64,000 nucleotides of DNA from Eubacteriaceae bacterium (GTDB taxonomy: Bacteria > Bacillota > Clostridia > Peptostreptococcales > Anaerovoracaceae): the NCBI GenBank assembly GCA_022652985.1, contig JALCRY010000003.1:1-64000 (forward strand), written 5' to 3'. The position numbers and the translations under genes are program-made. The notes under the pieces are model-generated. The model searched no databases and was not told the origin of the DNA. It worked only from the letters and a program-made list of their open reading frames with translations. Shown here one piece after another: positions 17,467 to 30,362 of this stretch (position 1 is the first letter of the stretch; each line of letters begins with the position of its first letter).

Positions 17467-18072
17467 GTGAAAAGAGTAGGAGTGCTGGGCGGATCGTTCG
17501 ATCCTGTGCATTACGGACATTTATGCCTCGCGCAGGATGCAAGAGATCTGGCCGGACTTGATGAAGTAATACTGATGCCGGCAAAGCTGCAGCCGTTCAA
17601 GTTGGACAAGCGTCTGACAGAGCCTGCGGACAGGCTGACGATGCTGAAGATCGCGGCGATGAGGCTGGAAAACATTTCGGTATCTTCCCGGGAACTGGAT
17701 TCGGACAGGATCTCATACACGGCAACGACGCTGGATGAGCTGAGACAGGAACTCGATGACGGAGATAAATTGTATTTTATCACCGGGACAGATTCGTTTA
17801 TTGCTCTGGGAACATGGTACAGGGCCGATGAGATCCTTGCGCATAACGGAATCGTGGTCGGGATAAGGCCGGGATACCGTGAGGACGAGGTGGAGCAGAA
17901 ATCGGCATTATACAGGACCGCATTCGGTACGGAGGTCATGATAATCGAGAACAGAAGGCTGGATATATCATCGACGGAAATAAGAGAAAGGGTAAGAAAA
18001 GGGGAGAGCACAGAGGGGCTTCTCCCGCAGGAAGTAAGAGATTATATTGATGAACACGGAATCTATAAATGA
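17467..18072 (+). CDS. nadD: Nicotinate-nucleotide adenylyltransferase
   Basis: 201 residues from GTG at 17467; the family begins shortly before the nucleotide-binding GGSFDPVHYGHL motif, and this start gives VKRVGVLGGSF. An in-frame ATG at 17446 inside aspS is the alternative. The second signature ISSTEIRERVRKG near the end is intact. It adenylates nicotinate mononucleotide to deamido-NAD, a central step of NAD synthesis. The last 23 bases overlap the following yqeK-rsfS gene; nadD-yqeK-rsfS is a common order in Firmicutes. Confidence 0.95.
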   Translation: MKRVGVLGGSFDPVHYGHLCLAQDARDLAGLDEVILMPAKLQPFKLDKRLTEPADRLTMLKIAAMRLENISVSSRELDSDRISYTATTLDELRQELDDGDKLYFITGTDSFIALGTWYRADEILAHNGIVVGIRPGYREDEVEQKSALYRTAFGTEVMIIENRRLDISSTEIRERVRKGESTEGLLPQEVRDYIDEHGIYK

Positions 18073-18961
18073 TTATATAAAAGAACATTACTCGGAAAAG
18101 CGGAGAGTTCATACGGAAGGTGTCCGGACTACAGCCATAGAAATGGCAAAACGTTTCGGAGCGGATCCGGAAAAGGCTGAAACAGCATCGCTTTTTCATG
18201 ATATGTTCCGCGGTACGCCTGTTGAGGATCTGAACAGATTGATCGATGAGACGGGCATACCCGAAAGATACAAGGGCAATGCCAATCTGGCACACGGCAA
18301 GCTCGCGGCCGCCGTCATGGAGCGTGACTGGGGAATAACCGACCGGGATATCCTGAATGCAGTTTCATTCCATACGACGGGAAGAGCAGGCATGTCGCAG
18401 CTTGAAAAAGTGGTTTTCCTGGCGGATGCCATAGAACCGAACCGGGATTATCCGGGAGTGGACGGTCTGCGGAAACTGGCAGCAGAGGACCTGGACGGCG
18501 CGTGTCTGGCCAGCCTGAGAGGAACAATAAGTTTTTTAGAGGAGCAGGGGAGTTTCATTGACCATGATACTGTAGATGCAATGGAATGGTTCACTGCTTC
18601 GGAAGGAGATAAACGAATGGAAACAAAGGACATCGCACAGCTTGCAGCGGAAGCGATCGACAAAAACAAGGGTTTTGATATAATGATCATTGACATTGCC
18701 TCAAAATCTTCGTTTGCGGACTATTTTGTCCTTGCGTCGGGCGCAAATGAAAGACAGATAGGCGCACTGCAGGAAGATGTTGAAGACGCATTGGCGCAGA
18801 AAGATGTTTTTGCGAAGAATATAGAAGGCAGAAAAGAGTCGGGATGGATACTGATGGATTACGGTGATATCATAGTAAACGTGCTGACAGCTGAAATGAG
18901 AGAAAGATACAACATTGAAAAAGTGTGGGCAGATTGTAAAATGATCACGATGGAGGAGTAG
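18050..18961 (+). CDS. In-frame fusion of YqeK (HD-domain Ap4A hydrolase) and RsfS (ribosome-silencing factor)
   Basis: 303 residues made of two proteins that are normally separate neighbours. Residues 1-180 are YqeK: HD-type metal ligands at His21, His50-Asp51 (LFHDM), His82, His108 (SFHTTG) and Asp126 ([13 protein letters not shown]), the set found in symmetrical diadenosine tetraphosphate hydrolases. Residues 190-303 are Rsf[43 protein letters not shown]. RsfS binds ribosomal protein uL14 and blocks subunit joining. No stop codon separates the halves. An AAGGAGAT ribosome-binding site sits six bases before an in-frame ATG at 18617, exactly where a separate RsfS would start, so a free RsfS may also be made. 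Start taken as ATG 18050, one codon after an alternative TTG. Confidence 0.93.
18603..18619 (+). promoter_or_regulatory. Internal ribosome-binding site and ATG at the YqeK/RsfS junction
   Basis: AAGGAGAT (18603-18610), six-base spacer, ATG at 18617, in frame with the fused gene. It is a stronger site than the one in front of the fused gene itself. Confidence 0.8.
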
Positions 18962-18963
18962 TC

Positions 18964-21438
18964 ATGGAGAATAAATATAATCACGCAGCCGTAGAAAAAA
19001 AGTGGCAGGATATCTGGGAAGCCACAAAACCGGATAAAGTTGAAGTAGATCACGACAAGAAGAAGTATTATGTACTGGAGATGTTCCCGTATCCTTCGGG
19101 AAAACTTCACATGGGTCATGTCAGGAACTATTCAATAGGTGATGTGGTCGCCAGATTCAAGAGAATGCAGGGATACAATGTACTGCATCCGATGGGCTTT
19201 GACTCTTTTGGCCTGCCTGCTGAGAATGCGGCTATACAGCATAATATTCCTCCTGCCAAATGGACATGGGACAACATCCATGAGATGGAAGTGCAGCTCC
19301 GCCAGCTCGGCCTTTCATATGACTGGGACAGAGAAGTACAGACATGTGATCCGAGTTATTACAAGTGGATGCAGTATATTTTCATCCAGTTTTATAAAAA
19401 GGGACTCGCATACAAGAAAGAGACCCAGGTCAACTGGTGCCCGGGCTGCCAGACAGTACTGGCAAACGAGCAGGTAGTTGACGGCAAGTGTGAGAGATGC
19501 AAATCGCTGGTCGGCAAGAAAACATTGTCGCAGTGGTGCTTCAAGATCACAGATTATGCAGATAAGCTTCTCGCGGATCTGGACAATCTGCCGGGCTGGC
19601 CTGAAAAAGTAAAGATCATGCAGAAAAACTGGATAGGCAAGAGCACAGGCGCGGAAGTAACGTTTGAGATCCAGGGATATGACAAAGGCCTGACGGTATT
19701 TACGACACGTCCGGATACACTGTTCGGAACGACATTCATGGTACTCGCTCCTGAGCATCCTTATATCGACGATCTTATTCCGGAAGGCAGCGAATACAGA
19801 GCTGCCGTGGAAAAGTATATCGATGACGCCCAGCACATGACTGAAATCGAAAGAGGCGCAGCGAACAAACCGAAGACAGGTGTGTTCACAGGACGTTACG
19901 CAGTAGATCCTGTAAACGGAGCGATAGTTCCTATATATATTGCTGACTATGTCATGATGGGCTACGGAACCGGCGCGATCATGGGTGTTCCGGCACACGA
20001 CCAGAGAGACTTCGATTTCGCGAAGAAATTCGGCATAGACATTATTCCGGTAGTCGATTCGGATGATCCTTCCATCGATGTGAATGACCTCAAGGAGGCC
20101 TTCGCTGCGGAAGGCAGAATGATCAACTCCGGCGAGTTCGATGGAATGAACAACCGCGATGCCATCCAGAAGATGTTCACATGGCTCGAGGAAAAGGGTA
20201 TCGGTAAAAAAGCGACCACATACAAACTCCGCGACTGGATAATTTCCAGACAGAGATACTGGGGTACGCCTATTCCTATGATATGGTGCGACGACTGCGG
20301 ATGGGTGCCTGAAAACGAGGAAAACCTTCCTGTCCTTCTGCCGGAAGATGTAGAGTTTACCGGCAAGGGTGAATCACCTGTGGCGACAAGCAAGACATTC
20401 GTCGATACTGTCTGCCCGAAGTGCGGGAAACCTGCGAAGAGGGAAGTAGATACTATGGATACATTCCTTGATTCATCATGGTATCAGATCAGATACTGCG
20501 ATCCGCGGAACGATGAAAAGTGCTGGGACAAGGAAACTGCAGATTACTGGATGAACGTCGATCAGTATATCGGCGGCGTTGAGCACGCTATCATGCATCT
20601 GCTTTATGCCAGATTCTTCGAAATGGCTCTGCATGACTGCGGACTTATCGAAGCGACCGAGCCTTTCGAAAACCTCCTGACACAGGGAATGGTAATAAAA
20701 GACGGCAAGAAGATGTCGAAATCGATCGGCAACATTGTCACTCCGCTCGACATCATAGATAAATACGGCGCTGATACTGCAAGATTGTTTATCCTTTTTG
20801 CAGCACCGCCTGACAGAGAGCTCGACTGGTCGGATGCCGGGGTGGAAGGCAGCTACCGTTTTATAAACAGAGTTTACAGACTGGTTTACGATTTCGTCGA
20901 GAAGTACGGCAGCGGTTCCTCTTCGTATACTGTAAAAGACGCACATGACAAGGAACTCAGATTCAGGCTCAATGCGACCTGCAAGAAGGTCGGAGATGAC
21001 ATAGACAAGAGATTCAGTTTCAATACGGCGATAAGCTCGATCATGGAACTGGTAAATGCCATGTATAAGTATAAGGATGAAGACGGTTTCAATGAAGAGC
21101 TGTTCAGATGCGCAATTGAAAATCTTGTTACTATGATGTCGCCTTTCACACCGCATGTCTGCGAAGAAATGTGGCAGCATCTCGGCAAGACCGAATCAGT
21201 GCACAAGGAAAAATGGCCTGTATGGGAAGCTGATGCAATGGAGAGAGACGAAGTCGAAATCGTTATTCAGCTGAACGGCAAAATCAAAAAGAAGATGAAC
21301 GTTAAAACAAATCTTGACAGGGACGGACTCGAAGAAGAAGTCATGGCAAGCGACGAGGTCAAAGAACTGGTAGGCGACAGGAACGTAGTAAAAGTAATCG
21401 CCGTACCGGATAAACTCGTGAATATAGTAGTTAAATAA
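18964..21438 (+). CDS. leuS: Leucyl-tRNA synthetase
   Basis: 824 residues, normal for the bacterial alpha chain. Class I signatures: [20 protein letters not shown] (HIGH motif as HMGH) near residue 45 and KKMSKSIGN near 585. Between them lie a zinc-binding region ([17 protein letters not shown]) and the CP1 editing domain with [20 protein letters not shown], which hydrolyses mischarged tRNA-Leu. The C-terminal anticodon-binding and KOW-like ends are present. The gene starts two bases after rsfS with the site GGAGG in between; no T-box leader is visible in the packed junction. Confidence 0.98.
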
Positions 21439-30020: not shown

Positions 30021-30362
30021 ATGGAAGACTGCATATTCTGCAAGATCGCCAATAAGGAAATACCTTCGAAAACGGTATATGAAGACGATAAAATTTACAG
30101 TTTCTATGATCTTGAGCCGCAGGCTCCTGTTCATGTACTGATAATCCCGAAGAAGCATATCGCTTCAACGGATGATCTTACAGACGAAGATCAGAAACTG
30201 ATGGGATATATGCTCTGCAAAGTCAAAGATATTGCAAAAGAGCTGGATCTCGTCAATGGATACAGGATCGTTATCAACTGCGGCGAAGATGGATTCCAGA
30301 CAGTAAAACACCTGCATATCCATCTTTTAGGCAAGAGAAAGTTGACATGGCCGCCGGGTTGA
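30021..30362 (+). CDS. HIT-family purine nucleoside phosphoramidase (HinT-like)
   Basis: 113 residues, complete small HIT protein: [20 protein letters not shown] at the start with the zinc cysteines, HVLIIPKKH in the middle and the catalytic histidine triad HLHIHLLG near the end, finishing WPPG as HinT proteins do. It hydrolyses AMP-lysine and aminoacyl-adenylate type phosphoramidates. The last codons also carry the -35 box of the rpsU promoter. Confidence 0.94.

Follow-up and report, generated by a model that had tools for sequence, protein, structure and literature searches.

In the window, the 64,000-nucleotide stretch of DNA analyzed here, the genes for YqeK and for the ribosome-silencing factor RsfS form one continuous reading frame that probably acts as a one-gene, two-product unit: it would yield a fused YqeK-RsfS protein and, from the old rsfS start kept within the frame by selection, free RsfS as well, so that loss of the yqeK stop codon is buffered. 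Comparison of sequences across the family lends good support to a recurrent YqeK-RsfS fusion with a conserved inner start. RsfS binds uL14 and blocks the joining of ribosomal subunits. It has been described as an anti-association factor (PMC10502375), and the role of YqeK as an Ap4A hydrolase has been reviewed (PMC8177086); faulty NAD precursors and 8-oxo-GTP are also cleaved by YqeK (PMC9426524).

Organization of the fused frame and its operon

The fused yqeK-rsfS frame spans positions 18050 to 18961 of the forward strand, begins with ATG, and specifies 303 amino acids before a TAG codon. The sequence-only reading had proposed a single open frame without a stop between the two parts, and this is borne out by the translation, in which none of the 303 codons is a stop and both domains are full length. 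The YqeK domain, a symmetrical Ap4A hydrolase of the HD superfamily, occupies 18077 to 18589 on the same strand (amino acids 10–180) and scores 142 bits against TIGR00488 (cut-off, 70 bits), with an hmmscan match to profile positions 1–173 of 173. The RsfS domain, at 18635 to 18928, also on the forward strand (amino acids 196–293), scores 100 bits against PF02410 and 97.5 bits against TIGR00090, where the match covers profile positions 2–99 of 99 and the cut-off is about 57 (56.9) bits. The Pfam HD and RsfS models agree with the TIGR calls for the fused protein. The dimetal ligands of YqeK, which follow the H...HD...H...H...D motif described in PMC8177086, are present as H21, H50, D51, H82, H108, and D126 and are invariant in 40 fused proteins. 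Ten RsfS positions are likewise invariant in that alignment, which takes in members without an ATG at the join. The frame is thus predicted to encode a complete YqeK with its catalytic residues intact, followed by a complete RsfS.

A structure model derived from the 40 fused proteins has a mean pLDDT of 91 and a pTM of 0.63, with pLDDT values below 50 only at residues 187–190. Foldseek matched its first part to the YqeK structures 3ccg, 2o08, and 8wmy and its second part to the RsfS structures 4wcw and 6sj6, of which chain 9 of 6sj6 is the 50S-bound protein from S. aureus. The plain reading of the model is that the fused protein would consist of two confident domains joined by a pliable linker.

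Upstream, nadD (nicotinate-nucleotide adenylyltransferase; 17467 to 18072, forward strand; 180 bits against NF000840 and 171 bits against TIGR00482; GTG start assigned from the sequence) overlaps the fused frame by 23 bases, so that the yqeK start sits inside the end of nadD. Downstream, the open frame of leuS (leucyl-tRNA synthetase, recognized from its sequence; 18964 to 21438, forward strand) starts two bases past the stop codon of the fused frame, and its Shine-Dalgarno (SD) sequence, GGAGGAG (−9.3 kcal/mol), lies inside the end of that frame. The three genes form a tight operon. No second copy of either half was found in the genome of the window, for which the assembly is 82% complete, and the other fused genomes likewise lack one. 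Elsewhere in the window, a HIT-family gene at 30051 to 30341 on the forward strand (PF01230, 98 bits) is a second candidate dinucleotide hydrolase, and YqeK may therefore not be the only such enzyme.

Distribution and origin of the fusion

The closest comparison comes from a congeneric genome (locus L002), which carries the same uninterrupted fused frame at 82% identity. Beyond it, we read 172 loci, mostly from the family of the window, and called each by HMM, giving 49 distinct fused and 119 split cases. Among the 155 loci placed in trees, 153 of which come from that family, 49 are fused, a ratio that cannot be read as a frequency, since loci were sampled in order of their similarity to a fused query; in a more evenly drawn set, 7 of 36 other genomes of the family carry the fusion. 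A phylum-wide survey of 398 genomes added one further genus with an uninterrupted full-length match (genomes G660 and G748), which is a lower bound. The two loci of this genus belong to a different family, represent an independent YqeK-RsfS fusion, and retain AACGGAGGAAACGATATG, with GGAGG before the ATG. A scan of genome contigs recovered mostly split genes, from Ruminococcus-like genomes. Three further genomes (G051, G053, and G013) had been suspected of carrying the fusion from the equal lengths of their open frames and proved to be split. The search of relatives thus upholds the fused architecture, since they do not all have a stop codon at the junction.

An assembly or sequencing error, with a stop codon or a change of frame at the junction overlooked in a MAG, is an extremely improbable source of the fusion. 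The genome of the window is a MAG, and most split yqeK and rsfS genes overlap out of frame, so that one indel would fuse them. The window reads through, however, with no stop or indel needed, and the congeneric assembly has the same open junction at 18% protein divergence. As most of the genomes are MAGs, fusions seen in a single genome could be indel errors, but those shared by whole clades are not, and several fused clades share the open junction.

On paired-domain trees of the 155 loci (FastTree and quick IQ-TREE), the fused and split states switch 20–21 times, counting gains and losses of the fusion alike, and at least 13–15 of these switches are forced by well-supported branches. Some close pairs indicate how a switch comes about. 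The junction of fused locus L061 reads GAA AAG GAG AAG TTA ATG ACA, and that of its split sisters L080 and L081 reads GAA AAG GAG AAA TGA ATG ACA, so that the state is decided by one base at the stop, TTA vs TGA directly before the ATG. A frame shift can create the fusion as well: fused L087 and two kin differ from split L140 and L143 by one base in length, and the same holds for fused L057 vs split L165. An origin by point change, as proposed, is exact for L061 and its sisters, but L087 and L057 differ from their split sisters in length; for the window, whose nearest split relatives are too distant to decide the matter, such an origin is possible. The codon CGA at 18614, one change from TGA, was considered as the exact lost stop and dropped, as many linker codons are equally near a stop.

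The inner rsfS start across fused genes

At the join in the window, a candidate SD sequence, AAGGAGAT, occupies 18603 to 18610 on the forward strand within codons for linker residues, and an in-frame ATG follows at 18617–18619, with 8 bases separating GGAG from this start codon. The SD sequence and in-frame ATG that the sequence-only reading had placed here are both present, with a duplex energy of −9.4 kcal/mol. In alignments the ATG coincides with the start codon that rsfS has as a separate gene, and initiation from it would produce a free RsfS of 114 amino acids (18617 to 18961, forward strand). The yqeK start at 18050 has a weak SD (−4.1 kcal/mol); the value at a TTG at 18047 is −5.1 kcal/mol. 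Locus L002 carries GGAGAA at the position of AAGGAGAT. The site of the window is thus strong and common to its congener, and synonymous shuffles of these two genes alone gave p = 0.34 and 0.18, two sequences by themselves being too few to indicate constraint.

The wider set of fused genes is more informative. Of its 49 members, 40 still have an ATG where rsfS formerly began, and the median SD energy at the inner starts is −8.95 kcal/mol, vs −8.8 kcal/mol at the starts of split rsfS genes (n = 117). At 295 other in-frame ATGs in fused genes, the median is only −3.3 kcal/mol (Mann-Whitney p = 1.6e-18 vs the inner starts), and the value of −9.4 kcal/mol in the window therefore exceeds chance. Starts of yqeK are generally weak in the family, with a median of −5.3 kcal/mol, vs −8.8 kcal/mol at rsfS starts. 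We also shuffled synonymous codons while keeping the linker protein. Pooled over 25 representatives, the observed energy was −8.6 kcal/mol vs −6.0 kcal/mol in the shuffles (z = −5.45, 0 of 4000), and the same procedure applied to other in-frame ATGs as a control was null (z = +0.3). Gene by gene, 0 of 40 shuffles reached significance at 0.05, so only the pooled test and the comparison of clades carry weight. The 50 bases around the inner starts are also predicted to be open in the mRNA, with mean folding energies of −3.3 and −2.6 kcal/mol in fused and split genes, respectively, vs −10 kcal/mol at control ATGs, a signal that owes part of its size to the A-rich composition of the junction.

A competing account holds that the fused protein is the sole product and that the SD and ATG are functionless relics of a recent loss of the stop codon. 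The pooled shuffle and the open mRNA structure speak against it, but the pooled result would also fit a recent fusion whose site has yet to decay, and only old fused clades can therefore speak to selection. One such clade comprises L008, L009, L100, L108, and L110 (support 99); every member is fused, as are L186, L192, and L193, which belong to the same genera, and by parsimony a single old fusion would lie behind it. Synonymous sites in this clade appear close to saturation, yet the SD codons AAA GGA are invariant. Among its five members, codons are otherwise identical in 6 of 119 conserved columns and in 0 of 11 Gly columns; with seven members counted, the figures are 13 of 139 and 0 of 12, and AAA GGA is still invariant. 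We consider the sole-product account quite unlikely on these grounds, even though the inner site has decayed or is weak in 12 of the 49 fused genes, so that the fused form would suffice somewhere. The view that the inner rsfS start is under nucleotide-level constraint beyond that imposed by the protein is well supported for the family, and a working inner start in most fused lineages is the best reading of the sequences. The earlier suggestion that one gene could give both fused and free RsfS gains from this comparison: given the family-wide SD strength, the shuffles, the AAA GGA codons, and the open mRNA, both products are expected.

Lineages without the inner start and unusual junctions

The 12 exceptions fall into three groups. 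Seven loci from three genera (L005, L086, L089, L090, L091, L075, and L078), which form one clade with support of 100, lack an ATG at the join, and their SD has mostly decayed. Two more, L093 and L107, have also lost the inner ATG, and L055, L069, and L076 keep the ATG with a weak SD. Because the YqeK ligands and the RsfS positions remain invariant in the ATG-less clade, the fused form apparently suffices as a source of RsfS. Two junctions leave room for non-ATG inner starts, which are possible from their sequences: L093 has a very strong SD, AATGGAGGTGCC (−12.9 kcal/mol), ahead of TTG and CTG codons with no ATG, and in L078 a moderate SD (−5.9 kcal/mol) accompanies a GTG.

Other arrangements occur in the same neighborhood. 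At L188, positions 649–2115 encode a 489-residue NadD-YqeK-RsfS triple fusion with a shortened YqeK part, also seen at L109, and the L188 gene keeps AAGGAGGAAATC (−11.2 kcal/mol) ahead of the RsfS ATG. The join of L025 contains an expanded linker rich in Pro and Glu, with ~31 residues vs the usual 5–17. Within the family, NadD-YqeK fusions accompanied by a split rsfS are found at L023, L062, L080, L084, L151, L157, and L160, and the NadD-YqeK fusions of the family keep no strong inner yqeK start. We had considered them as a control for passive decay and set them aside as confounded, because yqeK starts are weak in general.

Discussion

Our preferred explanation is the two-product unit. Initiation at 18050 would give the YqeK-RsfS fusion, whose production we infer from the frame, domains, and model presented above, and ribosome loading at AAGGAGAT with a start at 18617 would give free RsfS. 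The strong inner site and the much weaker yqeK start (−9.4 vs −4.1 kcal/mol) suggest a greater output of RsfS than of YqeK, whether as a fusion or free; judging from these energies, free RsfS is probably in excess of the fusion. The inner start would be the old rsfS start, selected for after the yqeK stop was lost, and its upkeep would make loss or regain of the stop nearly harmless, so that the fused and split states interchange often. In some lineages free RsfS may have become dispensable, with decay of the inner start and a fusion-only state as the outcome. Each part would work as it does in its own family, YqeK on Ap4A and similar dinucleotides and RsfS on uL14, and the fused form may bring YqeK to the 50S subunit.

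This last step invites a more ambitious interpretation, already raised in the sequence-only reading, which would add to the two-product reading: that the fusion exists because YqeK, tethered to the 50S subunit through RsfS, coordinates removal of the alarmone Ap4A with ribosome silencing. Aminoacyl-tRNA synthetases produce Ap4A, and the neighboring leuS encodes one of them. The invariance of catalytic and RsfS residues in the fused proteins and the persistence of the fusion-only clade are consistent with such a coupling. Several observations nevertheless make it unlikely. The state switches frequently with neither gene lost, which argues against an indispensable link; most fused lineages retain the start for free RsfS; NadD and YqeK are also fused in this neighborhood, as expected of tightly packed operons generally; and YqeK has other substrates (PMC9426524). 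With the inner start cushioning a lost yqeK stop, toggling needs no benefit of the fusion, and near-neutral stop loss explains it as well as a link between Ap4A and subunit joining does.

Elements of this arrangement have precedents. That one gene can give a long product and a short C-terminal product is already known, as is the NadD-YqeK fusion. In the mycoplasma NadD-YqeK protein (NF005519; JCVISYN3A_0380, PMC9426524), YqeK is similarly in frame with a neighbor from the nadD-yqeK-rsfS operon, but there the partner lies upstream, whereas in the window the partner is the downstream RsfS and the inner start is kept. CcmM of β-cyanobacteria occurs as M58 and M35, a long multidomain form and a shorter C-terminal form made by internal ribosome entry (PMC8580825); its two forms have been shown experimentally and its domains and pathway are unrelated, whereas the YqeK-RsfS products are predictions from sequence. 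An inner in-frame start within the gene of a larger subunit likewise releases a free C-terminal protein in the experimentally established case of Cas8/Cas11 (PMC11899642 and work cited there), which does not involve a recurrent, toggling fusion between operon genes that are elsewhere separate. The obg-nadD-yqeK-rsfS cluster of Firmicutes (PMC7549365) has the same genes, order, and kind of rsfS start signal, but a stop codon separates the yqeK and rsfS frames and lytR often intervenes. Within the literature searched, which excluded subscription papers, we found no description of a YqeK-RsfS fusion.

The family amounts to a natural, repeated gene-fusion experiment, in which close relatives are split, fused with an inner start, or fused only, and it lets one watch a retained inner start make stop loss tolerable and a bifunctional protein become fixed. 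If the fused frame is annotated as a single protein, free RsfS, a probable second product, goes unnoticed. A further proposal, which we regard as unlikely, is that selection keeps both free and YqeK-tethered RsfS, and that some of the silenced 50S subunits are thereby equipped with a dinucleotide-polyphosphate hydrolase of their own. If true, Ap4A metabolism and ribosome silencing would be linked directly and physically, and the strengths of the two starts would tune that link. The fusion also makes it possible to test whether Ap4A hydrolysis is connected with ribosome silencing.
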